Of a stretch of 52,904 bases of DNA, positions 17,163 through 45,912 are shown in pieces (within the stretch, counting starts at the first letter, position 1; each line of letters opens with the position of its first letter). The stretch covers positions 1 to 52,904 of the forward strand of contig CAKTHE010000016.1 of NCBI GenBank assembly GCA_934563745.1, written 5' to 3'. The translations under genes and the position numbers were made by a program. Below the pieces are notes generated by a model that was not told the DNA's origin, made no database searches, and worked only from the letters and a program-made list of their open reading frames with translations. Source of the stretch: an uncultured Dysosmobacter sp. GTDB taxonomy: Bacteria; Bacillota; Clostridia; Oscillospirales; Oscillospiraceae.

Positions 17163-17407
17163 TGTTAAACGCTTGGAAGGGGAGAAAACCCGTGATGCCC
17201 GCCTCAAGAGAGCCGGCGGCTGGTGCGAGCCGGCGGGGGAGCATGGGAGGACTGGCCCCGGAGCGTCCCGCCTGAAGCCAAACGAGTAGGGCGGGCCGGC
17301 TGGCACCGTTATCCGCCGCACCGAGCGCCGGGAAACCGGCGGAAACAGGGTGGTACCGCGTTTTAAACGCCCCTGACCGTTTTGAAAACGGTCAGGGGTT
17401 TTCTTTT
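17163..17407 (+). promoter_or_regulatory. T-box riboswitch controlling leuS
   Basis: A tRNA-sensing leader of about 245 bases. Seen: AAGAGAGCC of the stem I distal region, GAGTAGG and CCGTTATC of the stem III region, the T-box itself CAGGGTGGTACCGCG (17346-17360), and a terminator with a perfect 14-bp stem (17370-17383 with 17385-17398) and TTTTCTTTT. Uncharged tRNA is expected to stabilise the antiterminator and allow leuS transcription. A CTG at 17252-17254, before GCCCCGGAGC, is a candidate leucine specifier codon, but I did not resolve stem I fully. Confidence 0.93.
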
Positions 17408-20295: not shown

Positions 20296-21054
20296 TCAGC
20301 GGGAAGGCAGCAGCTGGGCCAGCAGATCCTGAACCTCCGGATACATGAAAAAGGCGGCCTGATACCCAAGGGCAGTGGCGATCCGCAGCTTCTGCAGCAG
20401 CGTCCCGGCGTCATCGAAAAGGACAAAATGGGTGTGGTCCTTGTCGGAATAGGTGAAATAGCGGGCGCACAGCTCCGGAGAGAAGAAGACGCAGGGCTGC
20501 CGTTCCAGCCGCTGTGCCAGATCCGCAGACGAGAGCGGGGTCCCTTCCCCGCGGGGCTCCGGAAGCGTGAAGTCCATCGCCAGACGCTGTACATCCAGCG
20601 CCGGCATGCGGCCGGGGACTGCCTTTTCCCGCAGATAGGCTTCATAGCTGCCGCCGGAGAGAGCTGTGTTGAGAAGCGGGACAGCGCCCTCCGCTCCGGC
20701 TGCATATGCTTCCGGAACAAAGAGCTGCCGTTTGATCCGCAGCAGACTTCGGGCCAGGACGGAGACAAACTGCTGCCGGTCCGGCCGGGGCAGCGCCTCA
20801 AAATCCAGAACTGCGCCGGAGAAGCTGCGCCGCAGGCACTCCTGAACGACGGCACCGGCCAGATGATCCGGCTTTTGGATCGGAGGAGCCTCCCAATCGC
20901 TCAGGGACAAAAGCCCGCCCCGGATCTGGATCGGCAGTGTGCCCCGCAGCAGTGTGGACTCCGGTCCGATCCGATAGGCCACATGAGCCGGTGTGCAGCG
21001 ATAGCGCAGGGCGTTGCGCAGCTCCTGCGGCGCGGCGGAGAGATAGATCTGCAA
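20296..21054 (-). CDS. Hypothetical protein with GH18-like motif
   Basis: A 252-residue soluble protein of no firm family. The segment FSGAVLDFEALPRPDRQQF resembles the GVNIDFE...DR region of spore-germination glycosyl hydrolases (YaaH/GH18), where the terminal Glu is catalytic, and the alpha/beta pattern could be a TIM barrel. Against this, it has no signal peptide and no LysM domain. The start is taken as TTG 21054, with AAGGGGGG 7 bases upstream; an in-frame ATG at 21165 would run over the divergent yqeG start. It is divergent from yqeG across about 75 bases. Confidence 0.55.
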   Translation of the reverse strand: MQIYLSAAPQELRNALRYRCTPAHVAYRIGPESTLLRGTLPIQIRGGLLSLSDWEAPPIQKPDHLAGAVVQECLRRSFSGAVLDFEALPRPDRQQFVSVLARSLLRIKRQLFVPEAYAAGAEGAVPLLNTALSGGSYEAYLREKAVPGRMPALDVQRLAMDFTLPEPRGEGTPLSSADLAQRLERQPCVFFSPELCARYFTYSDKDHTHFVLFDDAGTLLQKLRIATALGYQAAFFMYPEVQDLLAQLLPSR

Positions 21055-23265: not shown

Positions 23266-23315
23266 ATCGTTTTCCCTCGATTCCTTTTTAGAATTCCGCT
23301 GTGAAGCAGCCGGAT

Positions 23316-23657
23316 TTACTTTTTCTTTTTGGGATAGATCTTACCGCGGGGTGAGATATCCATATCCCGATAGAAACAGGAGATCAGCACGAACACGAGG
23401 ATGATGTACACCACGAATTCGCCTAACTGGAAGGCCAGCCAGGACGGGAACGGTCCGATGTAGGTGTAATTGGCGGGATCAGGCGCACCCGTCATATAGT
23501 TGACGATCAGAACGACTGCGTGCAGGAAAAACAGAGCAACTGTAACCAGAACCTCTTTGTTGATCTGCTTGAAACGGGGATCAATGGGAATCGCTTTGAT
23601 ATCGTAGTCCCGGCTGTTGGGGTCGATGGAGTCCATAATTTTCTTTTCTTCTGCCAT
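23316..23657 (-). CDS. YhdT/DUF997-like small membrane protein
   Basis: A 113-residue protein with a polar N-terminus containing DPRFKQINKE, two membrane helices (about 38-55 and 78-96) and a lysine-rich tail. It matches the YhdT/DUF997 pattern of small proteins encoded directly before PanF-type symporters, probably as an accessory subunit. GGAGG is present upstream of ATG 23657. It lies 50 bases before the symporter in the same operon. Confidence 0.75.
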   Translation of the reverse strand: MAEEKKIMDSIDPNSRDYDIKAIPIDPRFKQINKEVLVTVALFFLHAVVLIVNYMTGAPDPANYTYIGPFPSWLAFQLGEFVVYIILVFVLISCFYRDMDISPRGKIYPKKKK

Positions 23658-23713
23658 AACGACGAAATCCTCCCTTCAAATTTGCGGGGCTGCTCAGAGC
23701 TCAGGCGGCCTGT

Positions 23714-24481
23714 TTATTTGCCGTTGAACACCGGCTTACGCTTTTCATTGTGTGCGTCAATGGCTTCCTTGAAGTCGTGTGAGCCCAGCATATTGTCCAT
23801 AAAGCTGTGCTGCTCCACCAGGAACTGATCCCGGATGTGAAGCTCCATGTTCTGGTTGAAGTTCTGATGGAAGCAGGCCAGGGCCCGATAGCAGGACGAG
23901 GCGATGCGCTGCGCGAATGCGTCGGCTTCTGCCCACACCTGATCCTTGGGGACCACCTTCATCACGCAGCCCCAGCGGTGCAGATCCTCCGCCAGGATCG
24001 GATCACCGGTGAAGCTGTAATATTTGGCCATGTGCATGGGCAGGCACATCTTGGTGAAAACGCCCGCGGCGGGGATGCCCAGGTTGATTTCCGGCATGCC
24101 GAACTTTACGCCTTCGCCGGCGATGATGAAGTCGCACACGGCGGCCATGGCCCAGCCGGCGCCCATGCAGGCACCCTGTACGGCGGCGATCACCGGCTTT
24201 TTGCCGCCCCAGATGGCACTGCACATATCGGCGCAGCGCAGGGCGGCCTCTTCGGCGGCCGTACGTGTGTCAAAGCAGGAGAAGGCTCCGGTGTCGTTGC
24301 CGCCGCAGAAGATCTTGCCCTCTGCGCGGAGAACGATGATGGCAACATCTTCCCGTTCGCCCAGCTCATAGAATGCGTGGGTCAGGTCGATATACATATC
24401 GTCCGTCAAGGCATTGGCGGGAGCGTGTGCCATGGTCACGGTTGCGATTTTGTTCTGCACATCAATTTTAACGTAGCTCAT
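23714..24481 (-). CDS. Enoyl-CoA hydratase/isomerase family protein
   Basis: A 255-residue crotonase-fold protein. The oxyanion hole region is seen in FCGGNDTGAFS and GACMGAGWAMAAVCDFIIAGE. In rat enoyl-CoA hydratase two glutamates act (Glu144 in GGGCELAMMCD, Glu164 in QPEILLG). Here the second is kept (FGMPEINLG) but the first position falls in GAGWAMAA and is not acidic, so simple hydration is doubtful; isomerase, decarboxylase or another crotonase reaction is possible. GGAGG precedes ATG 24481. It is second in the operon, after the CoA-transferase. Confidence 0.88.
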   Translation of the reverse strand: MSYVKIDVQNKIATVTMAHAPANALTDDMYIDLTHAFYELGEREDVAIIVLRAEGKIFCGGNDTGAFSCFDTRTAAEEAALRCADMCSAIWGGKKPVIAAVQGACMGAGWAMAAVCDFIIAGEGVKFGMPEINLGIPAAGVFTKMCLPMHMAKYYSFTGDPILAEDLHRWGCVMKVVPKDQVWAEADAFAQRIASSCYRALACFHQNFNQNMELHIRDQFLVEQHSFMDNMLGSHDFKEAIDAHNEKRKPVFNGK

Positions 24482-24532
24482 AATCCATCCTCCATATTTT
24501 TTTGATTTGCGGTCTTAAAAAAGATCCTGCGC

Positions 24533-26116
24533 TTAGGCCTCTTTGGCATCCATAATGGCCTTCAGGCCGCCCCAGTCCTCCTGGAACAGGCACGCGTCCA
24601 TGACCTTGAGGTCCGGAGAGATCCGGGGACGGAAGCCCATATTGGCGATAATGTCCTTGTCCAGGTCGATGCCCGGAGCGATCTCAATGAGCTCCAGACC
24701 ATCCGGAGTGAGCCGGAACACGCCGCGCTCGGTGATGTAAAGGACCTCCTGGCCGGATTCCACCGCGTAGTCGCCGCTGAAGGTGACCTGCTGCACGGAC
24801 TCGACGAACTTGCGGCTGCGGCCCTCCTGCACGATGTGGATCTTGCCGTCCTTCACTTCCGTTTTCAGCTTGCCGGCCATCATCGTTCCGCAGAAGATGA
24901 CCTTTTTGGTGGGCTGGGTGATGTCGATAAAGCCGCCGGGACCGTTGACCAGGGAGCCGAATTTACTGACATTGACGTTGCCGTGGGCATCGGATTCCGC
25001 AAGGCCCAGGAACGCCACGTTCAGGCCGCCGCCGTTATACCAGTTGACCTGCACGTCCTGGTCCAGAATGCACTCCGGATTGTAGTTGTTGCCGAAGCCC
25101 GCGCCGCCGACGATGGCCACGCCGCCGACGATACCGGACTCGCTGGTGGCCGTTACGTAGTCGGAGACGCCCTCTTCCACGCAGACGGAGGCAACGTTCT
25201 GGGGAATGCCGATGCCCAGATTGATGCTGTCCCCGCGGGAGATCTCCATGGCGGCCCGCCGGGCGATGACCTTCTGATCGTTCAGGGGGATCCGGGGAAT
25301 GGCACTGAGATTGGCCTTCACATTGCCGCACAGGGTGGGATTGTAATAGAAGGCTTCGTTCTGCAGATGCGTTTCCTCCGGCGTCTCACAAACCACCAGG
25401 TAATCGATCAGCACGCCGGGAATATGCACGTCTCTGGGATGCAGCGATCCGGCCTCGGCCAGGTATTTGGTCTGGGCAATGACGATTCCGCCGCTGTTTT
25501 TGACGGCCCGGGCCAAAGCCAGGGAGTCGCCGTTGATGCTTTCTTCCGAAAGAGAGAGGTTGCCGCGGGTGTCGGCCACGGTGCCGCGGATCAGGCCAAC
25601 ATTGAGCTTCATGCTCTTATAAAGCAGCCATTCCTCACCAGAGATGTTCACCAGATCCACGATGTCCTCTTTGGTGACCTCGTTCATCTTGGCGCCCTCC
25701 AGGCGGGGGTCCACATAGGTCCGCAGACCGATCTTGGTGATAAGACCGGGCGTTTTCCCCGCGATGGCGGGCCACAGTTGGTTGATGACGCCCATGGGCA
25801 GGCAATAGGCCTCGATCTTATTGTTCATGCACAGGTCGATCATGCCGGGCGTGGCGCCGATGAACCCGCCGATGTAGCGCTTGAGCATGCCCTCATGGGT
25901 CCAGCGGTTCCAGCCCCACTCCTTGGAGGGCTTGTCGCCCTGGTGAGCGCCGTAAATCAGCGTCAGATCCCGGGGACTGCCGTTTTCCAGAAAACGCTGT
26001 TCCGTTGCGCGGATCACGTCTTCGCACAGACCCATCAGAGCCATACCGGCGGAAGCGACCGTATCGCCGTTTTTGATCAGAGCGGCGGCTTCTTTTGCGG
26101 TGATGATTTTTGCCAC
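24533..26116 (-). CDS. Family I acyl-CoA:carboxylate CoA-transferase (YdiF type)
   Basis: A 527-residue single-chain family I CoA-transferase in which the alpha and beta halves are fused, as in YdiF. The N-terminal half has SAGMALMGLCEDVIRA and LTLIYGAHQGDK; the second half has GINLGIGIP-like SINLGIGIPQNVA and ATSESGIVGG, whose glutamate is expected to form the covalent CoA thioester. Start is GTG 26116 with GAGGAGGA upstream. As first gene of an operon with a hydratase-like protein and a symporter, it probably activates an imported acid by taking CoA from acetyl-CoA or another acyl-CoA. The acid is unknown. Confidence 0.92.
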   Translation of the reverse strand: MAKIITAKEAAALIKNGDTVASAGMALMGLCEDVIRATEQRFLENGSPRDLTLIYGAHQGDKPSKEWGWNRWTHEGMLKRYIGGFIGATPGMIDLCMNNKIEAYCLPMGVINQLWPAIAGKTPGLITKIGLRTYVDPRLEGAKMNEVTKEDIVDLVNISGEEWLLYKSMKLNVGLIRGTVADTRGNLSLSEESINGDSLALARAVKNSGGIVIAQTKYLAEAGSLHPRDVHIPGVLIDYLVVCETPEETHLQNEAFYYNPTLCGNVKANLSAIPRIPLNDQKVIARRAAMEISRGDSINLGIGIPQNVASVCVEEGVSDYVTATSESGIVGGVAIVGGAGFGNNYNPECILDQDVQVNWYNGGGLNVAFLGLAESDAHGNVNVSKFGSLVNGPGGFIDITQPTKKVIFCGTMMAGKLKTEVKDGKIHIVQEGRSRKFVESVQQVTFSGDYAVESGQEVLYITERGVFRLTPDGLELIEIAPGIDLDKDIIANMGFRPRISPDLKVMDACLFQEDWGGLKAIMDAKEA

Positions 26117-26456: not shown

Positions 26457-27296
26457 ATGCGATACACCTTGTCGGACCGGGAGTTTACATTCATTTCCCA
26501 GATGATCTATCGGATTAATACCTTGGACAGCTATGAGGCGGTCTCCCAAATGGCGCTCAAGCAGCTGCAGACCATCATTCCTTTTACCAAGGGGATCATC
26601 TTCCAGATTCGGGAGGAGCACCAGAAGCTGGTTTACCGGAATCCGGTGGTTCTGGATCCGCCCGGAGAGGACTATACGGAGATGGACCATCATTTCATGG
26701 ATGCGAATTACCGTTCGGACTGGCTGATGTATACGTCCTCCCCCTGGAGCAATACCTTCCGGCAGACGGATATCCGGGATGAAGAGACCTTTTTGAAAAG
26801 CGATCTGTACCGGGATATTTATGAAGCGCAGAACGTCTACTACGGGCTGCAGTCCATTCTGGTGCATCAGGATCACAAGCTGGCGCTGGTGGGCCTGTTC
26901 CGCCCCCAGGATGCATCGGACTTTTCGCCCCGGGATGAGTTCATTATGAGCTCCATCGCTCTGCACCTGGAGCTGAAGTATTACGAGCTTTATCTCAAGG
27001 AGGCCAAGCAGGAGGCCTATTCATCGGACCAAGCACAGGCCTTCCGCAAAAACGAGGATTTCCAGTTTTACATGATGCAGAAGTATAAGCTGACCAAACG
27101 GGAGATCGAGACCTGTCTGCTGATCAGCCTGGGCAAAAGCAACCAGGAGATCGCGACGGCGCTGTTTATCAGCAAGTCCACGCTGGATAAGCATCTTTAC
27201 AATTCTTACCGCAAGGTCGGCGTGAACAACCGGATGCAGCTGGTTCAGCTTCTGCTGGAGGAGCATGGTCAGTTTGACGCCGGCGTGCAGGGCTGA
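26457..27296 (+). CDS. LuxR-family transcriptional regulator
   Basis: A 279-residue regulator: residues 1 to about 190 form a GAF-like sensory region (for example FTKGIIFQIREEHQKLVYRN), and the C-terminal 65 residues are a LuxR/GerE helix-turn-helix (LTKREIETCLLISLGKSNQ, IATALFISKSTLDKHLYN, KVGVNNRMQL). AGAGAG lies before ATG 26457. It is divergent from the CoA-transferase/hydratase/symporter operon and is its most likely regulator; the ligand could be the operon's substrate or its CoA ester. That role is inferred from position only. Confidence 0.87.
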   Translation: MRYTLSDREFTFISQMIYRINTLDSYEAVSQMALKQLQTIIPFTKGIIFQIREEHQKLVYRNPVVLDPPGEDYTEMDHHFMDANYRSDWLMYTSSPWSNTFRQTDIRDEETFLKSDLYRDIYEAQNVYYGLQSILVHQDHKLALVGLFRPQDASDFSPRDEFIMSSIALHLELKYYELYLKEAKQEAYSSDQAQAFRKNEDFQFYMMQKYKLTKREIETCLLISLGKSNQEIATALFISKSTLDKHLYNSYRKVGVNNRMQLVQLLLEEHGQFDAGVQG

Positions 27297-28699: not shown

Positions 28700-29140
28700 T
28701 CAGCGGCGGCGCTTCAGGCGGCGGTCGGAATGGCTGCTTCCGTCGAAGCCGTGATAGTTCTTCCGCCGCCGGCCATCTTTTGTAAAGGCCTGACGCAGGT
28801 TGTACTCCGTCAGCAGAATGCCGCCCAGAAACGGGAGGATCTGGATCCCCAGCAGGATCTGGGCATAGTCGCCCAGCCAGGCGGCGCCCTTGTCCGCGTT
28901 CAGCCACATGGCGCCGATCGTCAGTGCCAGCGTCAGCCAGCCCAGAACGAACCAGGTTTTGCCGCAGTAGTGGTGGGCAAACCGCCAGGTGTCCTCATTC
29001 AGGATGGAGCGGGAGGTCCGGTATCCTAAGAAGCTGCCAACCTTCTTCGGCGGACGGTTGGAAAAAAGATAGCCGAAAACGATCATGACCACCGGTACGA
29101 TGGAGACCATCAGCAGTAAAAAAGCCGTAAACGTATTCAT
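28700..29140 (-). CDS. SdpI-family membrane protein
   Basis: A 146-residue membrane protein with about three hydrophobic helices. The segment NRPPKKVGSFLGYRTSRSILNEDTWRFAHHYCGK is split here between two typical SdpI parts: the KVGSFLGYRT turn and the DTWRFAHHYCGK region. SdpI of B. subtilis gives immunity to the SdpC toxin, but most relatives have no known toxin partner, and none is seen here. ATG 29140 has AGGAGA about 9 bases upstream and overlaps the coaW stop by four bases. A basic tail (SDRRLKRRR) ends the protein. Confidence 0.82.
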   Translation of the reverse strand: MNTFTAFLLLMVSIVPVVMIVFGYLFSNRPPKKVGSFLGYRTSRSILNEDTWRFAHHYCGKTWFVLGWLTLALTIGAMWLNADKGAAWLGDYAQILLGIQILPFLGGILLTEYNLRQAFTKDGRRRKNYHGFDGSSHSDRRLKRRR

Positions 29141-29976
29141 CGGGTGGGATCTCCTTTCAGACTGCACAGGGCGGCGCCGATGGCCGTGGCAAACACCGCG
29201 TTTTCCGGAACGATGAATTTTACTCCGTACAGCCGCCGGAAATCCTCAGCCAGCTGAGCCGTCTGGGGAAGGGTCGCCAGAGAACCGGTCAGAATCGCCG
29301 TGTCGGTTTTGCAGCTGGAGCAGGCCAAAACCGACATAGTCCCGATGGACTGCAGCACCAGGTTGACGGTACCGGCGGCCAGATCGGCCGGGGAGGCATC
29401 GGAAGAGAGCTTGCCGAAGTTTGCCGCCGTCATGTCCGGGGTCAGGGTGGAGGCCGGATCCCGGGAGATGTCCCGGATCTGCAGGTCCGTTTTCCCCAGG
29501 TCCCCCTGGGCGGAAAGCTCCTGAAACTGGCGGAAATGCTCCACTCCAGCCAATTTATGGCAAAGCCCGCGCAGCGTGCCGCCTCCCACGCCGCTGCCGC
29601 ACAGATGCCGCACCTGCCCATCGGCCGCGGCCCAGAGAAAGGCAGTTCCGGTTCCCATCGAGACCACCACGGCCTCCCTGGCACCGGACAGGGCCAGACC
29701 GCCGGTGCCGCAGGCGGAGAATTCACTGACGGTCCGGGTGGGAAGCCCGTAGATGGACTCGTCCACAAAGGAGGCGCCCACGCCGGTGAGGACCACCTGA
29801 CAGACCTGCTGCAGCGACAGATGATTGGAGGAAAGATAATTGCCCAGCGCTCCGTAAAGAGAAGTCAGCTGATCCTCCGCCCGGACCCGCAGGACCGAGA
29901 GAAGCGAACCGTCCTCCCGAAGGCCGACGATCTTGGTAGTGGAGCCGCCGATATCGATTCCGAGAATCACATTCAT
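29137..29976 (-). CDS. coaW: Type II pantothenate kinase
   Basis: CoaW phosphorylates pantothenate, the first step of coenzyme A synthesis. It is an ASKHA-fold kinase of 279 residues, with GIDIGGSTTKIVG at the N-terminus (phosphate 1 loop), VSEFSACGTGGLAL, VVSMGTGTAFLWAA and SGVGGGTLRGLC. Type II enzymes of Staphylococcus are refractory to feedback by CoA. ATG 29976 has GGAAGGA upstream; an in-frame start 129 bases earlier would add residues not seen in the family. It is coupled to the sdpI-like gene downstream. Confidence 0.9.
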   Translation of the reverse strand: MNVILGIDIGGSTTKIVGLREDGSLLSVLRVRAEDQLTSLYGALGNYLSSNHLSLQQVCQVVLTGVGASFVDESIYGLPTRTVSEFSACGTGGLALSGAREAVVVSMGTGTAFLWAAADGQVRHLCGSGVGGGTLRGLCHKLAGVEHFRQFQELSAQGDLGKTDLQIRDISRDPASTLTPDMTAANFGKLSSDASPADLAAGTVNLVLQSIGTMSVLACSSCKTDTAILTGSLATLPQTAQLAEDFRRLYGVKFIVPENAVFATAIGAALCSLKGDPTR

Positions 29977-33400: not shown

Positions 33401-34351
33401 ATGATCACATTGGATTCCGGATCCCGGGACCCGTTTTATAATCAGGCCTTCGAAGAATATGTGTTTGAAACGTTTCGGGATGAAGAGGTGCTTTTGCTGT
33501 GGCGCAACGATCCGGCGGTGATCGTGGGCTGCTATCAGAATATCTGCCGGGAGGTCCACGTGCCGACGCTGCGGCGCCTGGGGATCCCGGTGGTGCGGCG
33601 GATCTCCGGCGGAGGAACGGTTTATCATGATGCGGGAAATCTCAATTACAGCCTGATGCTGCCGCAGACCGAGCGGATCAATTATCAGCGCTGCATGGAG
33701 CCGGTGATCCGGGCACTCAACGCGCTGGGAGTACCCGCCTATGCCGACCGGGTGTGCGACATCGCACTGGATGGCCGGAAGATCTCCGGCAGTGCCCAGC
33801 GCAGCGCCGGCGGACGGGTGCTTCATCACGGGACGCTGTTGTACTGCAGCGATCTGACGCGCCTGGACGCTATTACGACGGCATCGAAAAACGCCTGTAT
33901 TGAAACCAAGGGGACGCCTTCGGCCATCTGCCGCGTGACCAATATTGCCGACCATCTGGCCCGGCCGCTGCCGCTGGAGGACTTTGCCCGGGCTCTGCGG
34001 GAACAGATCCTGCCGCCGGGCAGCCGGCAGGTGGAGCTGGACGGGGCGCAGCGCGCGCAGGTGGAGCGGCTGCGGGATGAAAAGTACCGCAGCTGGGCGT
34101 GGACCTGGGGAAAGACGCCGGCCTTCACCTATGACCGGCAGGGGCGCTTCGACGGGGCCACGATCCATACGGCGTATACCGCCCGAAAGGGGATTCTGAG
34201 CGGTCTTCGGATCGAGAGTCCGCGGATCGCCGCCAATGCGGCTGAGCGCTTCGGCAGGGAACCGCGCCTGGATCCGGAGGAGCTGATGCGCGTATGCCGC
34301 GATCTTGTGGGAGACGAGCGGGCCGAAGCGCTGCTGGAGTGCCTGCTGTAA
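33401..34351 (+). CDS. lplA: Lipoate-protein ligase A homologue, copy 1
   Basis: LplA activates lipoate with ATP and attaches it to a lysine of lipoyl domains. The 316-residue chain has the large catalytic domain with VVRRISGGGTVYHDAGNLNY and DIALDGRKISGSAQR, where the lysine contacts the lipoyl-AMP carbonyl, and a C-terminal accessory domain (from about residue 245, AWTWGKTPAFTYDR). GGAGGGAG precedes the ATG. It starts the cassette lplA, lipoyl carrier, lipA, second lplA. It could instead be an octanoyl or lipoyl transferase, since the families are close. Confidence 0.9.
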   Translation: MITLDSGSRDPFYNQAFEEYVFETFRDEEVLLLWRNDPAVIVGCYQNICREVHVPTLRRLGIPVVRRISGGGTVYHDAGNLNYSLMLPQTERINYQRCMEPVIRALNALGVPAYADRVCDIALDGRKISGSAQRSAGGRVLHHGTLLYCSDLTRLDAITTASKNACIETKGTPSAICRVTNIADHLARPLPLEDFARALREQILPPGSRQVELDGAQRAQVERLRDEKYRSWAWTWGKTPAFTYDRQGRFDGATIHTAYTARKGILSGLRIESPRIAANAAERFGREPRLDPEELMRVCRDLVGDERAEALLECLL

Positions 34352-34388
34352 AATAAAGACTGCCGGACAGGCGGGAAAGGGGAACATA

Positions 34389-34652
34389 ATGGAAAAGAAA
34401 CTGTTGATGCCCAAGCTGCGGCCGGAAATGGAGCAGGGGGTCCTGTGTGCATGGCTGCGGGAAGAGGGGGACCGGGTGGAAGCCGGCGAACCGCTTTTTG
34501 AGATTGAGACGGATAAGGTGGTCAATCAGATCGAAGCGCCCCAAAGCGGTGTGCTGCGCCGGCAGCTGCGGGAGGAAGGCGACGAAGTACCGGTCCTGAC
34601 GCCGGTGGCTGTGCTGGAGATTGAAGGAGACGAACATGGAACGAAAGCCTGA
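34389..34652 (+). CDS. Stand-alone lipoyl-domain protein
   Basis: An 87-residue protein consisting of only a biotinyl/lipoyl domain. The hairpin EIETDKVVNQIEAP carries the lysine (residue 43) expected to be lipoylated; the DKV rather than MKM context means lipoyl, not biotin. The start MEKKLLMPKL is typical of an E2 lipoyl domain, but no subunit-binding domain or acyltransferase domain follows. AAAGGGGA precedes ATG 34389. It lies between a ligase and the lipoate synthase, overlapping lipA by 17 bases. It may be the acceptor on which lipoate is assembled, or a carrier for an enzyme elsewhere. Confidence 0.88.
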   Translation: MEKKLLMPKLRPEMEQGVLCAWLREEGDRVEAGEPLFEIETDKVVNQIEAPQSGVLRRQLREEGDEVPVLTPVAVLEIEGDEHGTKA

Positions 34653-35502
34653 CTGGCTGAAGGTCCGCTACAATCAGGAGGCGGTGGACGAGGTGGCGGC
34701 CCTGATGCGGGACCTGAAGCTCAACACCGTCTGCAAGGAGGCGAACTGCCCCAACTTGGGGGAGTGCTATCGCCGCCACACGGCGACCTTTATGCTTCTG
34801 GGCAGCCACTGCACCCGCAACTGCCGCTTTTGCAATGTGGAGCACGCGTTCCCGGATCCGGTGGACCCGGAGGAGCCGGAAAATGTCGCCCTGGCCGCGC
34901 AGAAGCTGGATCTGCGCCACGTGGTGCTGACCTGCGTGACCCGGGATGACTTGCCGGATGGCGGGGCCGAACAGTTTGCAAAGACCGTTCGTGCCATTCG
35001 CCGGCTGTGCCCGCACACCACGGTGGAGACACTGATTTCGGATATGGAGCTGAATACCGCGGCGCTGGATACGGTCCTGGCGGCGAAGCCGGAGGTGCTG
35101 AATCACAATGTGGAGACGGTGAAGGAGCTTTACAGCACGGTGCGCCCGCAGGCGGGCTATCGCCGCTCACTGGAGGTGCTGCGCTACTGCAAGGAGCATG
35201 CGCCGGGGATCCTGACGAAGACCGGCTTCATGGTGGGCCTGGGCGAGACGGATGAGCAGATCGACGCACTGATGGATGACGTTTTGGCTGTGGGCTGCGA
35301 CATTTTGACCATTGGGCAGTATCTGCAGCCTACGCCGGCCCATGTGCCGGTGGCCCGCTACGTCACGCCGGAGGAGTTTGAGCGTTATAAAAAGCAGGCG
35401 CTGGACAAGGGGTTCCGCTTTGTGGCCAGCGCACCGCTGGCCCGCAGCTCTTACCGGGCCTGGGAGGTTTTGCAGGAGGAGCAGGCGCATGATCTATATT
35501 GA
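34636..35502 (+). CDS. lipA: Lipoyl synthase
   Basis: A radical SAM enzyme that inserts two sulfur atoms into a protein-bound octanoyl group. Both iron-sulfur clusters are visible: the auxiliary cluster cysteines CKEANCPNLGEC and the radical SAM CTRNCRFC. The conserved C-terminal serine motif that ligates the auxiliary cluster appears as ARSSYRA. The 288 residues match the family. GAAGGAGA precedes ATG 34636, which lies inside the lipoyl-domain gene (17-base overlap). Octanoyl transferases LipB or LipM are not in the window; one of the LplA-like proteins may fill that role. Confidence 0.96.
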   Translation: MERKPDWLKVRYNQEAVDEVAALMRDLKLNTVCKEANCPNLGECYRRHTATFMLLGSHCTRNCRFCNVEHAFPDPVDPEEPENVALAAQKLDLRHVVLTCVTRDDLPDGGAEQFAKTVRAIRRLCPHTTVETLISDMELNTAALDTVLAAKPEVLNHNVETVKELYSTVRPQAGYRRSLEVLRYCKEHAPGILTKTGFMVGLGETDEQIDALMDDVLAVGCDILTIGQYLQPTPAHVPVARYVTPEEFERYKKQALDKGFRFVASAPLARSSYRAWEVLQEEQAHDLY

Positions 35503-36469
35503 GACCGGCTCCGACGACGTCTATTATAACTTTGGCCTGGAATACTATTTCGCGGCGGAAAAGCGTCTGCCGGATACGGTGTTCCTGTTCTGGAGAACCA
35601 CGCCTACCCTGATGGTGGGGAAGTACCAGAATGTGCTGGAGGAGATCAATAAGCCCTACGCAGATGCCCACGGCATCCGCATCGTGCGCCGCATGAGCGG
35701 CGGCGGCACCATTTATACGGACCCGGGCGGCTGGCAGTTTACGTTTATCCAGCACGGCGGCGGAGACGAGATCTCCTTTCATGCCTACATTGCGCCGGTG
35801 ATCCAGGCTCTGGGGGAGCTGGGGGTCCAGGCGTCCTTCAACGGCCGCAACGATCTGACCATTGATGGAAGAAAGTTTTCCGGAAACGCCCAGTACCGTC
35901 TGGGGGACTGTGTGGTGCATCACGGATCGCTGCTTTATCAGACGGATATTGCCCAGATGGTGGCCTCCACCACGGTGGACCGGTATAAGATCCTATCCAA
36001 AAGCATCAAATCCGTTCGGGACCGGGTGACCAACATTGCCGATCACCTGCCCCAGCCCATCCCTACGGAGCGCTTTAAAGAGACCATGGTGCGCTGCATC
36101 CTGGGCCCTGATGGGACCCGCTACGAACCGACCGAGGCGGATCGGGCACGGATCCGGCAGCTGGCGCAGGAGCGGTTTGCCTCCTGGGAGCGGATCTACG
36201 GCGCATCGCCCCGGTTCAATATTGAGAAGACCGGCCGTTTTGCCGGCGGGAAGATGCAGTTCCGTATGGAGGTCCAAAAGGGCGTGATCCGGGAAGCCTC
36301 CGTCAACGGGGACTTTTTTGCCACCCTGGACGCAGAGGATATTTGCAGGGCTCTTGTCGGATGCCGCTATGAGCGGGGAGCGGTGCTGCAGGCGCTGCGG
36401 GCCAACGGGATCGACGGCGCGGTATACCGCGTGAGCGCGGAGGAGATGGCGGCGCTGATCGTGGACTGA
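35489..36469 (+). CDS. lplA: Lipoate-protein ligase A homologue, copy 2
   Basis: A second LplA-type protein, 326 residues, clearly diverged from the first copy. It has IVRRMSGGGTIYTDPGG, the catalytic NDLTIDGRKFSGNAQ with its lysine, VVHHGSLLYQTDI, and a C-terminal accessory domain (SWERIYGASPRFNIEKTGRF). ATG 35489 has AGGAGGAG upstream and overlaps lipA by 14 bases. Two ligases around one lipoate synthase suggest a split of labour, such as octanoate versus lipoate, or different acceptor domains. No terminator follows before the tRNA promoter. Confidence 0.9.
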   Translation: MIYIETGSDDVYYNFGLEYYFAAEKRLPDTVFLFWRTTPTLMVGKYQNVLEEINKPYADAHGIRIVRRMSGGGTIYTDPGGWQFTFIQHGGGDEISFHAYIAPVIQALGELGVQASFNGRNDLTIDGRKFSGNAQYRLGDCVVHHGSLLYQTDIAQMVASTTVDRYKILSKSIKSVRDRVTNIADHLPQPIPTERFKETMVRCILGPDGTRYEPTEADRARIRQLAQERFASWERIYGASPRFNIEKTGRFAGGKMQFRMEVQKGVIREASVNGDFFATLDAEDICRALVGCRYERGAVLQALRANGIDGAVYRVSAEEMAALIVD

Positions 36470-37523: not shown

Positions 37524-37760
37524 AACGAGGATAGAGGCGCGGCGCGCAAAAGTACCTTCGGGGTCAGAACAGGCGGTTCCCGAAGCGAAAGGGCAAGCCG
37601 CCGAAGGGTCGCCGCTCTGGCCTGTAAGGGGGGCGATTGCCTGGGCCGTCGGAGAAGATCCGGCGGACTGCCACACTGTGGAGCGCTATCAGGTCATCAT
37701 GCGGAAGGGTTCCGTTTCATGTCACGGCTATGATCTCCACGGGGATCATAGCTTTTTTTA
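37524..37760 (+). promoter_or_regulatory. Lysine riboswitch (L box) with terminator
   Basis: The aptamer closes with GATAG (37530-37534) and CTATC (37686-37690). Core segments match the B. subtilis lysC leader: GATAGAGGCGCG...AAAAGTA, then AAGCCGCCGAAGGGTCGCC, then GGACTGCCAC...GTGGAGCGCTATC. The expression platform ends in GCTATGATC/GATCATAGC (37727-37752) with seven T residues, an intrinsic terminator. Lysine should favour termination and so lower expression of the NhaC-M20 pair. Confidence 0.88.
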
Positions 37761-37801: not shown

Positions 37802-39184
37802 ATGGAAGAAAAAAGAATTGTAAAGCCATGGCAGGCAGGGCTGATGCTCTTGGTCGGCGTCGCGATTATCATCGCAGGGCTGCTGGTGATGAAGCTGAAC
37901 AACCGCATTGTCCTGGCGCTGGATGGCGTAGTGATGTGCCTGATGGCCTGGTGCTTCGGGATTCCTTACGAAAGATTGCAGCAGGGGATTAAGGAGACCG
38001 TGTCCTCCATGATCGTGGCTATTTTGATTTTGCTGTCCGTGGGTGTTCTGGTGGGCGTCTGGATGGCCAGCGGCACGGTGCCGGTGATGATCTACTACGG
38101 AATGAAGATCCTGACGCCCGGCCTGTTTTTGCCGGTGGTCTGCATTCTCTGTACGCTGATGTCCACCATGGCCGGAACCTCCTGGGGGACCTTGGCCACC
38201 GTGGGGGTTGCCTGTATGGGCGTTGCCCAGGGCCTGGGGGTACCGTTGCCGGTGGCGGCGGGCGCGGTGTGCACCGGCGCGTTTTTCGGGGATAAGGTTT
38301 CCCCGCTGTCGGACTCTCCCGTGATCACGGCTACCGTATGCGACGTGCCTTTGATGGAGGGGATCCGCCATGCGCTCCTTTCCACGGGACCGGCTTATCT
38401 GCTTTCCCTGGTGTTCTTTTTTGTTTATGGTCTGCGCTACGCGGGAGGCAGCGTGGGCGGAGAAGTATATGAGGATATTCTGACGACCGTTTCCGGCACG
38501 TTTTCTTTAAGCCCGCTGCTGCTGGTCCCCGTGGCTGTGGTGGTGATCCTGATCCTCACCAAGAAACCCACCATCCCGACCTTTGTCGCCGGCATTGCCG
38601 TGGGAGCGCTGCTGGCCATGGTGTGCCAGGGAGTGAGCCTGAGTGAGATCCTGACGGTGATGTATTCCGGCTATTCGGTGGACTCCGGATCGGAGGTGGT
38701 CAACTCCATGCTCAACCGCGGCGGCTTTACGTCCATGCTCTCCACCATCGGCCTTTTGATTGCCGCCGGCATTTTCGGCGCGCCTCTGCGTACGGCCGGT
38801 GTGGTAGATGTTCTGCTGGGCTTCGTGCGGCGCATTGCCAAGTCTTCCCGCACCATGTCGCTGGGGGTTCTGGTGCTGCACGCCGTGTTCTTTACCATCA
38901 CCGGTGCCTACTATGTCTCGTACCCCGTGGTGGGCGGCATGGTGAAGGATCTTTACCCGGAGTATCATCTGGACCGCAAGAACCTGATGCGCACCCTGCT
39001 GGATACGGGCACGGGACTTGCGCCCATGGTGCCCTGGTCGACGACCGGCTCGTATACGGCCACTACGCTGGGCGTTGCAAACCTGGCCTTTTTGCCCTAT
39101 GCGCCCATGCTGTGGCTGTCGATCGTGTTTTCTGTCTTTTATGCCGTTACCGGGATTGGCACGGCGCGGGCAAAGGAGGCGTGA
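37802..39184 (+). CDS. NhaC-family transporter under lysine riboswitch control
   Basis: A 460-residue membrane protein with about 11-12 helices of the NhaC Na+/H+ antiporter superfamily. Typical segments are VCILCTLMSTMAGTSWGT, CTGAFFGDKVSPLSDSPV and LMRTLLDTGTGLAPMVPW. NhaC-type proteins preceded by lysine riboswitches were predicted in earlier comparative work to be lysine transporters (LysW), and the leader here fits that group. It is followed 3 bases later by an M20 hydrolase in the same transcript. Start ATG 37802 with GAAGGGA upstream. Confidence 0.88.
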   Translation: MEEKRIVKPWQAGLMLLVGVAIIIAGLLVMKLNNRIVLALDGVVMCLMAWCFGIPYERLQQGIKETVSSMIVAILILLSVGVLVGVWMASGTVPVMIYYGMKILTPGLFLPVVCILCTLMSTMAGTSWGTLATVGVACMGVAQGLGVPLPVAAGAVCTGAFFGDKVSPLSDSPVITATVCDVPLMEGIRHALLSTGPAYLLSLVFFFVYGLRYAGGSVGGEVYEDILTTVSGTFSLSPLLLVPVAVVVILILTKKPTIPTFVAGIAVGALLAMVCQGVSLSEILTVMYSGYSVDSGSEVVNSMLNRGGFTSMLSTIGLLIAAGIFGAPLRTAGVVDVLLGFVRRIAKSSRTMSLGVLVLHAVFFTITGAYYVSYPVVGGMVKDLYPEYHLDRKNLMRTLLDTGTGLAPMVPWSTTGSYTATTLGVANLAFLPYAPMLWLSIVFSVFYAVTGIGTARAKEA

Positions 39185-40333: not shown

Positions 40334-40350
40334 ACCGGAAAAGAACATGC

Positions 40351-40390
40351 GCAGAAAGCCTTGAATCCACAAGGATTCAAGGCTTTCTGC
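40351..40390 (+). terminator. Hairpin after the M20 gene
   Basis: An 18-bp perfect stem (40351-40368 with 40373-40390, loop ACAA), 17 bases past the stop. No T-run follows the stem on the plus strand, though the stem itself ends in CTTTCTGC. Confidence 0.65.
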
Positions 40391-40400
40391 GATTTCAGGG

Positions 40401-40438
40401 AAAAGCCCGCCGTCTGCACGGCCGTGCAGACGGCGGGC
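40401..40438 (-). terminator. Intrinsic terminator of the dehydratase cluster
   Basis: A 16-bp perfect stem (40405-40420 with 40423-40438) followed on the minus strand by CTTTT, 18 bases past the family III CoA-transferase stop. Confidence 0.85.
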
Positions 40439-40455: not shown

Positions 40456-41678
40456 TTAAATAACGCCCTCTTCCTGCAGAGCGGCGATTTGCGCGGGGGT
40501 CATGTGAAGCAGATTCCGGCAGGTTTCCTCCGTATGCTGGCCCAGCGTGGGGGAGGGGAGGACCTCCACCGGGGAATCGGACAGATGGAAGGCGCTGCCC
40601 AGGGTCTCGTGAACGCCCAGAACCGGGTGATCCACCTCTACGATGGTGCCGGCCTTCCGGTAGATCGCACCTTCGGCAATGTCCTTGGTGCTCAGCACCG
40701 CGCCGCAGGGGATGCCGGCTTCGGCGAACAGGGCCATGACTTCTTCCTTGTCGTAGCGGCGGGTCCACTTGGTGATCTCACTGTCGATTTCGTCCCGATG
40801 CTCAGCCCGCTTCATGGGGTCGGAGTAAATGGGATCGTCGAACCAGTCCGGGCGCTGGATCAGGGTGCAGAATCTGGCCCATTGGGGGCTTCCGGGCACG
40901 GGGGAGACATACATGAATACGTAGTCGTTCAGCCCATCCGTTCCGCGGGGCTTGCAGGGGTACATGTTGTGCGGGCAGCGGTTGACAAACTTCTTGTTGC
41001 CGAAGCGCACGTTTTCGACCCCGTCGTCCAGCTGGCTGACAAAGGCACCGCGGCAGGTCTGAATCAGGACCTCCTGCATGTTGATGCGCACCAGCTGCCC
41101 CCGGCCGGTCCGCTCCCGCTCCAAAAGGGCTGCCAGGATCCCATGGGAGAGATAGACGCCGGAGATGTTGTCCGCCAGATTTGCGCCGCTTTGCATGGGA
41201 GCGCCATCCCGCTCGCCGGTGATGCTGCACACCACGCCCATGGCCTGGGCCACGCCGTCGAAGCAGGGGTATTTGCTGTAGGGACTTTCATCCGCGTAGC
41301 CCTTGATGGAGCCGTAAACGATCTGGGGATTGAGCGCCCGGACCTCTTCGTAGGAAAAGCCCAGCCGTTCCATCGTTCCGGGGGCGAAATTCTCAACCAG
41401 AACGTCGCCGGTTTTGATCAGCGCCCGCAGGATGTCCTTTCCCTTGTCCGACTTGATGTCCAGCGTGACGCTTTTTTATTGTTGTTCAGAAGACCGAAAT
41501 GAATGGTATCGGCGCCGGGACCGCGGGTGCCCCGGGAGGAGCGGGCGCCCATGCGGGCCTGCTCGCCGTATTTGGGACGTTCGATCTTTAATACTTCGGC
41601 GCCCAGCTGGGCCAGATGCAGCGTGGCGATGGGACCGGATTCAAACTGGCTCAGATCGATGACACGGATTCCTTCCAA
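40456..41678 (-). pseudogene. Family III (CaiB/BaiF) CoA-transferase, frameshifted
   Basis: A family III CoA-transferase, a kind that often activates the 2-hydroxy acid for a dehydratase (as FldA in Clostridium sporogenes). The N-terminal part (EGIRVIDLSQFESGPIATLH, AEVLKIERP, IHFGLLNNNKK) ends in one frame; the rest (VTLDIKSDKGKDIL, VENFAPGTMERLGF and on to IAALQEEGVI) continues in another. The break is at six T residues (41472-41477, A6 in the coding strand); one more A would restore a 407-residue protein. The start is also odd: TTG 41678 has no near ribosome binding site, and AAAGGA lies 16 bases upstream, before an ATC codon. It is the third gene of its operon. Confidence 0.85.
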
Positions 41679-41705
41679 TGCTTTTATGGGGATCGTTCCT
41701 TTCCT

Positions 41706-43004
41706 TTACTGATCTTTTTTCATCACACGATGGACAATGAAGTCTTCTACCATGGCACTCATGGTCTCCCGGCTCCAGCTGCCGGGGTTGACGGGGTCGG
41801 CCTTGAACATCAGCACGGGGATGCCGGCGTCCTCCAGGGCCTTCTTGGTGAAATAGGAGCCCTCCAGAGAGATGGCGCAGCTGTCCGGAACCATGTAGAC
41901 CACGCCGTCGATTTTGTTGTGCAGGGCTTCTTTCAGAAACCATTGGGAGTTCCAGGGGGGCATGTGGAGAAAGTCCTCCAGCCCGACAAAGCGGGCGGCC
42001 AGTGCCCGCAGGGGATCCGGCTCCACGTGATTGCGGATGTAGCCGTCAGCTGCCAGGCCCAGGTACATGGTCCAGATGAAGACGGCACCGTACTTCTCCT
42101 CGAAATCCTGATAGAACGCGAAATCGTGCCACAGGCCGCGGCCGATCCACATGAGACGGTATTTTTCGTTGGGAACGGCGGCTTTTCCGGCGTCCGCCAT
42201 GGCCTTGACTTCTTCGTAAAGACTTTTGGCGTGTTCGGCGCCCCAGCGGGTGCCCCGCTGCCACTGCCCCTGCATGACGGCATTGACCGTGTCCGCCACG
42301 GTGACGGGGGCCGGAACCGTCTGTGCGATCAGATCCCGGGTTTTGCGGTACCAGCCCTCCTGCTCGTTGATCAGCTCCATGACTTCCTGAAGCCGGTGGA
42401 GATCGAACATTTTGCCGGTTTTGCGCTCCAGGAAGGAGATGAGCTGGCGAAGCTCCACCTCGCCGGTGTCCAGACGCTCCGGGTCATAAAGCTCCTCCCA
42501 GCGATCCAGATCCAGTTTCCACCAGTTCAGGGGCAGCTTCCGGGCAACGGTCGTTTCCATGGTGTACAGGCCGATGTTGTGCTGCCGGGCAAAAAGCTCC
42601 CAGATCTTGGAGTTGTAATCGCAGTTCAGGCGCGTAATGGCCAGCGTGGGCTTGGGCAGGCCGCCCCAGGGGCCCAGCTCCCGGTCCTCCGGATCCAGGC
42701 TTTCGCCGAAGGAGGTGGCGCAGTAGGAGCAGATGTCGGTGGGATAACCGGCTTCCTGCAGCAGGCGGTTGTAGCGGGGCGTCATGCGCTTGGCAGCGCA
42801 GATGGAGACCCACCATTGGTTTACGGCAAAGGGAATGTCCATGGCCCGCAGGATTTCCATGGGGAAGTCGGCCGGGACCAGCGCGAAGTCGTCGCCCTGC
42901 TCCACCCGCCTGCGCAGGGCCGCAAACCATTCCTTCTGATGGACGGCTGCCGTCCGGGTGGCCTGAAGTGCCTTTTTGGCGGTGGATTTGCTCTCGTTTT
43001 CCAT
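41706..43004 (-). CDS. 2-Hydroxyacyl-CoA dehydratase subunit (HgdA/HgdB family), intact
   Basis: A 432-residue subunit of the 2-hydroxyacyl-CoA dehydratase D-component family, oxygen-sensitive iron-sulfur enzymes that remove water from 2-hydroxyacyl-CoAs by a ketyl radical route. Cysteines likely to bind the cluster include CSYCATSFGES (about residue 95) and ITRLNCDYNSK; the end VYMVPDSCAISLEGS...IPVLMFKADPVNP is typical of the family. ATG 43004 has AAGGAGGGA upstream. The partner subunit upstream is frameshifted, and no activator ATPase (HgdC/FldI type) is in the window, so function is uncertain although this frame is intact. Confidence 0.87.
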   Translation of the reverse strand: MENESKSTAKKALQATRTAAVHQKEWFAALRRRVEQGDDFALVPADFPMEILRAMDIPFAVNQWWVSICAAKRMTPRYNRLLQEAGYPTDICSYCATSFGESLDPEDRELGPWGGLPKPTLAITRLNCDYNSKIWELFARQHNIGLYTMETTVARKLPLNWWKLDLDRWEELYDPERLDTGEVELRQLISFLERKTGKMFDLHRLQEVMELINEQEGWYRKTRDLIAQTVPAPVTVADTVNAVMQGQWQRGTRWGAEHAKSLYEEVKAMADAGKAAVPNEKYRLMWIGRGLWHDFAFYQDFEEKYGAVFIWTMYLGLAADGYIRNHVEPDPLRALAARFVGLEDFLHMPPWNSQWFLKEALHNKIDGVVYMVPDSCAISLEGSYFTKKALEDAGIPVLMFKADPVNPGSWSRETMSAMVEDFIVHRVMKKDQ

Positions 43005-43018
43005 GTCGCATTCCCTCC

Positions 43019-44159
43019 TTAAATCGTTTCGATGAAGGCGCGGAGCTGCTCTTTGAGACCGTCGTTGTCTGCAAAGGGATAGCGCAGATTCCGAAGCTTC
43101 AGGCTGGGGATCCCGGCCGCGTCCAGAAGCTTTTTCTGCTCGGGATAGTCCCAGCTGATGGCGTCCTCGTATTTTTGGGAGAGCAGCAGAACGCCCTGCG
43201 CGCCGGAGGCGTGCACCGCGTCGTTCAAAGCGGCTGTGCGCTGGCTCAGCCCGCCCTTCTCGGAGCATGTAGCGATCTACAAGTCCCCAGAGGGGCGTAT
43301 ACAGCGGATTCACATCCCGCTCATAAAGGTGTGCGCCCCAGTTGTGGACCTCGCCCACGACCACGGCACCGGAATCCTCCAGAGTCCGGTAGAGCCAGAC
43401 ATCCGCCTGGTCGGTGCCGGAGAAAAAGATGCGGGTTCCGGGGACCTCCGGCCAGGCGGGAATGTCCGCGCAAAGCGCCCTTACAAGGCGCGTGTGCTCC
43501 GGCTTATCCATGAAAAGCCCGGCACCCAGGATTACCAGGGCCTCTTCGCCGGTCAGGTGGACGTGCTCCCCGCAGCGGAAGCGCAGCAGCTCCCGGACGG
43601 CCGCGCGGTTTTCGTTGCAGATCTGGACGCCGCGCTGATAATCCGCTTCGCGGATGCTTCGCCCAGCCCAGCGCTCCGCCGTTTCCCAAAAGAGTTTCAG
43701 GCTGCGTTCGTTGCGCATCGCGTACAGCAGAGTGCGCCCGAAGAGCCAGTCGATAAACTCGAGTTCAGGGATGGGCAGTTCCGGTTTCTCCCGCCGCAGC
43801 TCGCGCAGATAAAGATACAGGCGGACAAACTGGTCGGAGGAGTTGGAGACGGCCAGATAATCGATGTACGCGCTGCAGCAGCCGTTTACCAGCGTTTCAA
43901 AGCAAAGCTTGGTGCTTGTCTGAAAGGACAGTTCCAGATAGCGCTCCGCCAGCGGGGTCTGGATCCCGGCGACGGGTCCGATCTGCGCCGGAAACAGGTC
44001 CGCTGCGATGAGAAGCTCCTGCGGGACGTCGTACCCCAGCGTACCAACCACTTTTCCGCCCCTGCGCCGATGCTCCCGGGCAGCGGCATCCCGGTGATCA
44101 TATGCGTATTGCAGCGCGGCAAAGGCCTGGTTGTTTCGCACACATTCACGAATGCTCAC
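43019..44159 (-). pseudogene. 2-Hydroxyacyl-CoA dehydratase partner subunit, frameshifted
   Basis: Another 2-hydroxyacyl-CoA dehydratase family subunit. The first frame, from GTG 44159 (GGAGG upstream), reads through GKVVGTLGYDVPQELLIAA, NGCCSAYIDYLAVSNSSDQF and DSGAVVVGEVHNWGAHLYE to about LWGLVDRYMLR; the family C-terminus SEKGGLSQRT, GVLLLSQKYEDAISWDYPEQ and KEQLRAFIETI lies in another frame. The shift falls between 43260 and 43277, where the second frame meets a TAG. The total is 1141 bases, one more than a multiple of three, so a one-base gain or two-base loss explains it. The unshifted frame would read on into the next gene. Confidence 0.85.
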
Positions 44160-44269
44160 GGTGAAAACCCTCCGTTTCTTCTTTGGCGTTTGAATTGACA
44201 AGGCCCAGCCGCTGCTTCTGGGCATCCGGCACAAAGACGGCGGGCGATGCGGAAAAAGAGGGGGCTGCC

Positions 44270-45912
44270 ATGCTGACGATCAACTTAATCCGGTGGGCAC
44301 TGGAGGATGCGCTTTTGTCCGATCACGTTCACCGGAAACCGGATCCCTTCACGCGGTTTGAGCTGCTTGCCGAGAATGGACGGCTTTCACCCGATGGGGC
44401 GATCTTCTGTACCTGGCCACGCCGGGAACGTTTTGCACCGCCGCGGACCGGGTGGACGGGACGGAGACGTCCTATACCTTTCTGATCGCGGGGGACAGTC
44501 CGGCGCTGGCACCCTATCGGGAACGGAAGGAATTCAATATCCTGACGGCGGCGCTTTCTTATCCCGCGCTGTGCAACCGCATGGTCCGGCTGGAGCACGC
44601 ATATGATGACTGGCGAAGCCGTTTGAGACGGGCCCTCTATGCGGAGGCGTCTTTGAACGGCCTGCTTTGCGCCGGGGCGTCCCTGCTTCCCACGGACCTT
44701 CTGTATCTGAGTATCGGCTATCGGGTCGTCGGTTCGGCCCGCACAGCCCACTGCCCGTTTTTGGATGCGGCGGAAGATGCGGGCCAGCTTTCCGACGAGC
44801 AGCTCCGGAAGCTTGTCAGCGGCACGTGGCAGGCGTGGAACGGCTGGCTTTTCTGCCTGCATCCCGTCCAGGCGGAGGGACAGCTGGTGGGATATCTCAC
44901 CCTGGCCGTGCCGGAGCGGGTGGGCAGCGCCCTGGCGTCTGAACTGCGGGATCAGACGGTGGACGCTCAGCAAACCTTTATGTCCCGTTATTATCAGGAG
45001 CAATATGCCTCCTCCAATCTGCTGACCGTTTTCATGTGTGACCTGCTGGACGGAAAGCTGAGCGATCAGGAGGAGCTGGTGCTCCGGGCCAGGCAGCTGC
45101 CGCTTCCGCTGAAGAACCGGTATTATCACCTGGTCGTGGTGGAGCCGGACGATTCCACGATGGCCAATTCCCCGATGGCCAATTCCCCGATGGCCAATTC
45201 CCCGCATTTTCTCTCGGGGCTTGCCAAATGCTTCGCGTCGGATATTGTTGCGTCGTATCGGGGACGGATCCTGGTGGTCGCCTCCAAGAGGCGGGGGGAT
45301 GAGCAGATTGCATACGATCCGCAGGGCTTGAAAACCCTTCTGGAGCAATACAATGCCGTCGCCTGCATCAGCAATCATACGCAATGGCTGACTGCCCTGC
45401 GTCCTCTGTATGTGCAGACCCAGGGGGCCATTCGGTTCGCCGGGGTTTATTGTGCGGACCGCTCCCGCCGGGTTTTCCGCTCGGAGGATTATGCCATGGC
45501 GCAGATCATTGACCTGTGCGCCCAGCACTGTCAGGACTATTTTCACGATGACCTGCGCTATCTCTGCCACGCGGGGATCGTTTCACTGAAGGACTATGAC
45601 GATAAGCATCAGACCGATTACTGCGCGCTGCTCAAGTACTATCTCATGAACGACCGGAAGACCGTTCAGACGGCCCAGGCCTTTTACATGTACCGCAACA
45701 CCCTTCAAAGCAGGATTGAGAAGATCGCCCGTATTGTCGGCGAGGATTTTGAGGATCCGCAGATCCGCCAGCGGCTGCTGTTTTCCATTCAGGTGCTGGA
45801 GTATATGCGCACCTGCCTGAAGCAGGAGGACCTATACGGAAAAAAGCAGCATACGGCTCTGACTTTTCACCGCCTGGGCGGCCGGCCCGATTCCGGCGAT
45901 GCGGCGCGCTGA
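44270..45912 (+). pseudogene. PucR/CdaR-type transcriptional regulator, frameshifted near its start
   Basis: A regulator with a long sensory part and a C-terminal PucR-type helix-turn-helix (LLKYYLMNDRKTVQTAQAF, YMYRNTLQSRIEKIARIVG). The start MLTINLIRWALEDALLSD has GAGGGGG upstream; its frame reaches SPDGAIF at about 44407, while the continuation LYLATPGTFCTAADRVDG lies one frame back. The 1643-base span is one base short of 548 codons, consistent with one deleted base. An internal start after the break might still yield most of the protein. It is divergent from the dehydratase cluster and probably controlled it. Confidence 0.8.
45160..45204 (+). repeat. Three exact 15-base tandem repeats
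   Basis: ATGGCCAATTCCCCG occurs three times in a row, encoding MANSP three times inside the regulator gene. The copies are identical, indicating a recent in-frame expansion. Confidence 0.95.

Follow-up and report, generated by a model that had tools for sequence, protein, structure and literature searches.

A dehydratase-family module with frame breaks in three of four genes, probably decaying, in an uncultured Dysosmobacter

The island and its frame breaks

The window analysed here, 52,904 nucleotides (nt) from the forward strand of contig CAKTHE010000016.1 (assembly GCA_934563745.1, uncultured Dysosmobacter sp.), holds an island of four genes: on the minus strand a HadC/BzdN-like and a HadB/BzdO-like PF06050 subunit and a family III coenzyme A (CoA) transferase, with a PucR-type regulator divergently transcribed from the plus strand. 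Only the HadB-like gene is in frame. Frames were followed with a codon-usage Viterbi segmentation, seeded with five genes of the window (the HadB-like gene among them), in which frame changes are allowed at a cost, and the features of the island, with its open reading frames (ORFs), are as follows.

40350-40391: terminator-like element (minus strand), a perfect inverted repeat whose arms are 19 nt long; lies between convergent genes
40456-41678, minus: family III CoA-transferase (CaiB/BaiF-like), broken; Pfam CoA_transf_3 in both pieces
41418-41678 and 40456-41373, minus: N-terminal piece and C-terminal ORF (305 residues, other frame) of the CoA-transferase
41472-41477, minus: break 1, a six-A run on the coding strand; Viterbi switch at 41468, ortholog motif N-x-N-K-K-S
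41706-43004, minus: HadB/BzdO-like PF06050 subunit, 432 residues, in frame; PF06050 at 8.4e-51, with matches to MbdO, 3O3M_A and BzdO
43019-44159, minus: HadC/BzdN-like PF06050 subunit, broken; N-terminal piece 43272-44159, C-terminal piece 43019-43267 in another frame
43246-43257, minus: break 2, in the stretch that joins motifs YMLRE and SQR; from Viterbi and the spacing in relatives
41706-44159, minus: 817-residue ORF, the HadC-like N-terminal frame running into the HadB-like gene; matched by protein P0121 (817 residues, 98%)
44270-45912, plus: divergent PucR-type regulator, broken; N-terminal piece from 44270 (presumed start), main ORF 44452-45912; HTH_30 at 7.4e-10, alignment with 10 relatives
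44378-44398, plus: break 3, in the regulator; from Viterbi and alignment
45160-45204, plus: 15-nt unit (MANSP) repeated in frame within the regulator, three copies; 10 of 10 relatives do not have them

The repeat at 40350-40391 has a companion with 17-nt arms at 40405-40438, and the two perfect inverted repeats separate the convergent M20 peptidase and CoA-transferase genes; terminator-like sites number 4 in the region, against 6.2 expected in shuffles.

The segmentation switches frame inside genes at 41468 (CoA-transferase), 43265-43293 (HadC-like subunit) and 44378-44395 (regulator), and on our own reading of the Viterbi gene calls these are the only three genes of the window that lose their frame internally. 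Coding segments end near an in-frame stop in 51 of 55 cases, the exceptions being three at the breaks and segment 14738-15960, whose own ORF stops at 16116, before the next gene, so that no frame change is involved. Pfam domains are split over two frames as well, CoA_transf_3 into 1-64 and 68-366 and HGD-D into 3-241 and 268-342. The island accounts for 3 of the 50 gene calls; among the 43 of the 47 outside calls that were scanned with Pfam, no domain was seen to be split over neighbouring frames, again on our own reading, and the sole call with no Pfam match was 20296-21054. By length, the island makes up 5457 of 52904 bases (10.3%), and three of three breaks would fall there with P ~0.001, a post hoc figure. 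The codon-usage path, the Pfam splits and the regulator alignment thus confirm the frame breaks in all three genes as real features of the sequence and bear out the initial annotation, which had read three of four island genes as frameshifted; the Viterbi segments and Pfam scans likewise uphold its view that the other genes of the window are free of frameshifts.

In relatives the same genes are whole. Twenty-five relative loci, fetched through the HadB-like protein (62-69% identical), share the gene order of the window, with a HadC-like gene in 25, a CoA-transferase in 24 and a detected regulator in 10; several loci end close to the module, and relatives without a detected regulator are not counted as lacking it. 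The HadC-like gene lies in one open frame in 25 of 25 (L003 and L008 being partial, at contig ends) and the CoA-transferase is in frame in 24 of 24 (the L013 contig ends before the gene).

Against this background the three breaks differ in kind. At the six-A run the CoA-transferase has, on balance, one base fewer than orthologs P0141-P0149. In the HadC-like gene, YMLRE and SQR stand 10 nt apart, compared with 24 nt in the 23 relatives that remain once the cut loci L003 and L008 are set aside, which leaves the window 14 nt short: the eight residues that relatives carry between the motifs, often with an S-x-K-K core, are missing. This spacer has a constant length in 22 of the 23 relatives by pattern and in L015 by eye, and likewise in the natural fusions P0128 and P0132; the more distant fusions P0134, P0135 and P0136 gave no match to the spacer pattern. 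Break 2 would be better described as a small deletion than as a single-base slip, in a comparison that leaves the nearest orthologs of the HadC-like subunit outside it. The regulator, counted by hand, measures 137 nt from its presumed start to LYLATP, as against 132 nt in the 10 relatives, where the alignment is gapless; the start region is present in all 10, and the second frame of the window takes over at 'LLYLATP'. A single-base correction, which had been proposed for each gene, therefore suits the CoA-transferase, and not the HadC-like gene, 14 nt short, or the regulator, 5 nt long.

Recurrence elsewhere and the state of the in-frame gene

At least two of the breaks appear to recur in other assemblies. 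Protein P0121, 817 residues long and 98% identical over 100% of the fusion ORF, heads a cluster that comprises 6 member sequences and 3 contigs, and in the out-of-frame stretch it equals the window residue by residue. Protein P0140, with 305 residues and 99% identity to the C-terminal ORF of the CoA-transferase, stands for a cluster of 5 members and 6 contigs; we infer from its same start and length that it carries the break of the window, the next nine matches (P0141-P0149) having 410-425 residues and at most 80% identity among the best 120 of 3341. Neither protein is the record of the window over again, since 13 of 817 residues are different in P0121 and 3 of 305 in P0140. Among the best 120 of 878 matches, with candidates of 237-756 residues, no HadB-like protein exceeded 80% identity, hence none was an unfused copy of this allele.

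These recurrences bear directly on whether a local sequencing or assembly error made three breaks in working genes. Break 1, at six consecutive A, and break 3, next to a run of G, do occupy typical slip sites, and the regulator break is known from one assembly only. An error would nevertheless have to have produced a fusion of the same 817 residues and a truncation of the same 305 in clusters of 3 and 6 contigs whose representatives are unlike the window, to have left break 2 14 nt short of relatives and without a conserved segment, and to sit beside an in-frame HadB-like gene with conserved-site changes of its own. Since breaks 1 and 2 recur in cluster representatives that differ from the window, we reject error for those two, subject to the caveat that a single study may lie behind the contigs; for the three breaks together it is a very improbable account.

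A second possibility is that the breaks are bridged by recoding, through ribosomal or transcriptional slippage, or serve as slippage-driven on/off switches at short runs. The A run of break 1 within K-K codons would suit such a mechanism, yet it would have to operate at three unrelated places, one of which (break 2) has lost coding sequence; moreover, L015 and L017, of the 24 relatives, carry a six-A run at the same place in frame without recoding, and the cluster representatives share the broken state of the window. We consider this the least credible of the alternatives.

The third concerns the fusion itself: no stop separates the N-terminal HadC-like frame from the HadB-like gene, and the break could have created a working 817-residue protein that is still under selection, like natural subunit fusions. 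Natural proteins of similar size, P0128 (841 residues) and P0132 (842), do align with both halves, and the linker is free of stops in both alleles; in relatives, many of them poorer in G+C, the HadB-like frame is open back to that point in 0 of 25. The fusion, however, lacks the C-terminal part of the HadC-like subunit, some 80 residues still picked up by Pfam in the other frame, and other genes of the window have 85 open out-of-frame codons at 6.5% or 17% of positions, depending on the frame. Its HadB-like half changes at fixed sites, and the CoA-transferase and regulator are broken too, which leaves a selected fusion highly unlikely. As an observation in its own right, P0128 and P0132 span both subunits nearly end to end (39-41% identity over 95-99% of the query), pointing to fused forms in other lineages.

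To what extent the HadB-like gene is still constrained was read at the protein level only, by setting the window against the P0121 allele in an alignment of 120 homologs (65-80% identical); the controls were 67 pairs of homologs, not independent of each other, that diverge by 1.4-6% and differ at 6 or more residues. The two alleles differ at 10 of 432 residues, 8 of them at positions where conservation reaches at least 93% and 6 where it reaches at least 98%, and the ten columns have a mean conservation of 0.92, compared with 0.64 for the control pairs (maximum 0.91). In the controls the columns at least 93% conserved take up an average of 16% of the differences (maximum 75%), and in 219 pairs at 6-12% divergence this share averages 7%, with a maximum of 17%; random nonsynonymous changes in the gene of the window would place 60% there (95% range 30-90%). 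Conserved-site changes 182 and 183 are derived in the window, and residue 131 is unlike the homologs in both alleles. Departures from the majority at columns at least 98% conserved number 10 in the window and 13 in the other allele, as opposed to 4, 1, 4 and 3 in the four nearest homologs and to a median of 0.5 among the 120 (maximum 10, in P0071), an excess that is in part the distance of the lineage. Elsewhere in the module, residue 271 of the HadC-like subunit is V in the window and D in 23 of 23 relatives, and residue 17 of the CoA-transferase is Q where 11 of 12 orthologs have R. The HadB-like subunit is thus apparently under relaxed constraint, as judged from these substitutions, and the suggestion that the fourth gene is intact in function finds no support: it is in frame, yet 8 of its 10 allele differences hit columns at least 93% conserved.

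The hallmarks of a decaying operon are accordingly present, with three of four genes broken relative to orthologs, recurrence of breaks 1 and 2 elsewhere, relaxed constraint and intact modules in relatives. Very probably, then, a conserved four-gene module has lost its function in the lineage of the window and is now decaying; we judge the decay real and probably recent. In such a history the breaks would be true mutations that predate the split of the sampled strains, the module would have brought no benefit in the host or niche, and the regulator would have decayed along with it. Several observations weigh against this conclusion. Beyond the single-assembly status of the regulator break, the P0121 and P0140 clusters both have source 'ena' and a longest contig of 55181, and may share one study, and the out-of-frame stretch of the fusion, ~84 residues, is identical in both alleles, where by our own estimate ~1.5 differences would be expected. 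In the HadB-like comparison there are only 10 differences, neighbours 182 and 183 may be one event and the control pairs are not independent; at the 98% threshold the 6 of 10 (60%) face a control mean of 5%, with one pair at 62.5%; and for 5 of the 8 conserved-site changes (39, 56, 119, 209 and 254) it is the P0121 allele, and not the window, that has the derived residue. Across the HadC-like piece and the CoA-transferase, the remaining 4 of 6 differences sit in variable columns, and the HadB-like gene has neither a stop nor a large deletion and is still called coding by Viterbi. Of the earlier proposal, the decay of one functional unit is supported by the two recurring breaks, the in-frame relatives and the relaxed HadB-like gene, and assembly error, its alternative, is set aside for two of the three breaks.

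Close relatives with intact copies and identical flanks, which would have told against decay, did not come to light, and neither did any genome of the same species or genus. Identity in leucyl-tRNA synthetase peaks at 79% (G008 and G009) among the 14 genomes that carry the module. The CoA-transferase piece has matches in 30 of 400 genomes of the family of G008 (E<=1e-50), at no more than 43% identity, and in 0 of 394 genomes of the order at E<=1e-75, a threshold that G008 itself misses. The V-ATPase subunit I, matched in 276 of 400 genomes, gave no match in 2 genomes of the genus, and the module proteins had no match in 8 larger V-ATPase flanks (7-16 kb; subunit 54-59% identical), a negative that says little on the arrival of the island because the relatives are only 54-59% identical and the flanks 7-16 kb long.

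Enzyme family and the cysteines of the HadC-like subunit

Both PF06050 subunits are recognised in the module by Pfam. The HadB-like subunit finds its best solved match in MbdO (6e-21), followed by 3O3M_A (3.1e-17), with BzdO also matched, and the intact HadC-like relative in L002, a locus of Clostridium sp. chh4-2, matches BzdN (6.3e-29) and 3O3M_B (2e-23); scores against the NCBIfam HadB and HadC models lie far below the cut-offs. The module resembles HadBC, the (R)-2-hydroxyisocaproyl-CoA dehydratase of Clostridioides difficile (PDB 3O3M), in pairing two PF06050 subunits with a family III CoA-transferase, a role held in the HadBC system by HadA. It differs in scoring below the NCBIfam cut-offs, in a HadC-like subunit without the three inferred ligand cysteines and in having no activator gene in the module. 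The best solved matches come from the Bzd-type benzoyl-CoA reductase BzdNO and the 3-methylbenzoyl-CoA reductase MbdNO (MbdO for the HadB-like subunit, BzdN for the HadC-like relative), from which the module departs in its cysteine-poor HadC-like subunit and in that no further reductase or aromatic-pathway genes were recognised in the Pfam scans of the window.

In the characterised enzymes a [4Fe-4S] cluster is bound by three cysteines in each subunit (PMC8473912), and an activator delivers an electron to one cluster while the substrate sits on the other (PMC8473912, PMC11574389). In the HadB-like subunit Cys 92, 128 and 376 align with cysteines of 3O3M_A and are Cys in 120 of 120 homologs. 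The partner subunit, in its in-frame form, is another matter:

L002:8793-9962 and 22 other relatives: HadC-like subunit without the inferred cluster cysteines, corresponding to window 43019-44159

Three ligand columns were chosen by alignment with the cysteines of 3O3M_B (HadC), and their ligand role is inferred; a Cys within two residues of them occurs in 0 of 23 relatives, which mostly have Q, T or E there. Two further columns aligned with HadC cysteines have a Cys nearby in 6 and 5 of the 23. The total number of cysteines in the subunit is one in L004, two in L002, L007 and L014, and 3 to 11 in the others, and the one or two of the first four are too few for a three-cysteine cluster, whatever columns are chosen.

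No activator gene lies in the island, nor did scans of neighbouring genes reveal an activator-like one in L002 (9 neighbours), L004 (7) or L009 (2). TIGR00241 is matched at E<=1e-20 elsewhere in 12 of the 14 module-bearing genomes, with many of the matches in frames of 950-1560 codons. The only scanned window protein that scores for PF01869 is encoded at 29137-29976, and it scores better for Fumble, a pantothenate kinase family.

With a HadC-like class that lacks the inferred cluster cysteines and a module without an activator gene, the assignment of the lost pathway to reductive fermentation of 2-hydroxy acids or amino acids is not sustained: the named fermentation is a guess from family names, and what the data show is the loss of a CoA-ester module. 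As a tentative proposal, drawn from aligned columns, the module may belong to a widespread class within the dehydratase/reductase family that would carry an iron-sulfur cluster only in the substrate-side, HadB-like subunit, the three inferred cluster cysteines of the electron-relay, HadC-like partner having given way mostly to Q, T and E. A search of an open library, limited to those words, found nothing linking the dehydratase family to pseudogenes, PucR or a lacking cluster.

Surroundings and significance of the decaying module

Outside the island, a T-box leader (17165-17377, plus) lies directly upstream of leucyl-tRNA synthetase (17471-19897), and a lysine riboswitch (37524-37696, plus) upstream of an NhaC-type antiporter (37802-39184, plus), which is followed by the M20 peptidase gene. 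A second acyl-CoA unit, in frame at 21754-26116 (minus), comprises a sodium:solute symporter, a DUF997 protein, an enoyl-CoA hydratase and a CoA transferase, together with a LuxR-type regulator at 26469-27296. The lipoate-type cluster at 33401-36469 (plus) encodes two proteins with LplA-B catalytic domains, an 87-residue lipoyl-domain protein and a radical SAM protein.

Pseudogenised operons of host-associated bacteria typically have several genes of a unit broken, regulator included, with intact orthologs elsewhere. The module described here is the same in principle, and its decay is an ordinary phenomenon; what sets it apart is the chance joining of two subunits in a single ORF by one of the breaks. 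The locus offers a case of a regulated module whose genes are being lost as a set, and the evidence draws on more than one assembly. It is also a warning, in that automatic gene calling reports the 817-residue dehydratase fusion and the 305-residue CoA-transferase as proteins. The better lead lies in the conserved module class with a cysteine-poor partner subunit, as seen in the in-frame relatives: if a cluster is indeed held by the HadB-like subunit only, the electron would not arrive via the known two-cluster route, and these enzymes would need some other path for it, or would carry out another reaction.

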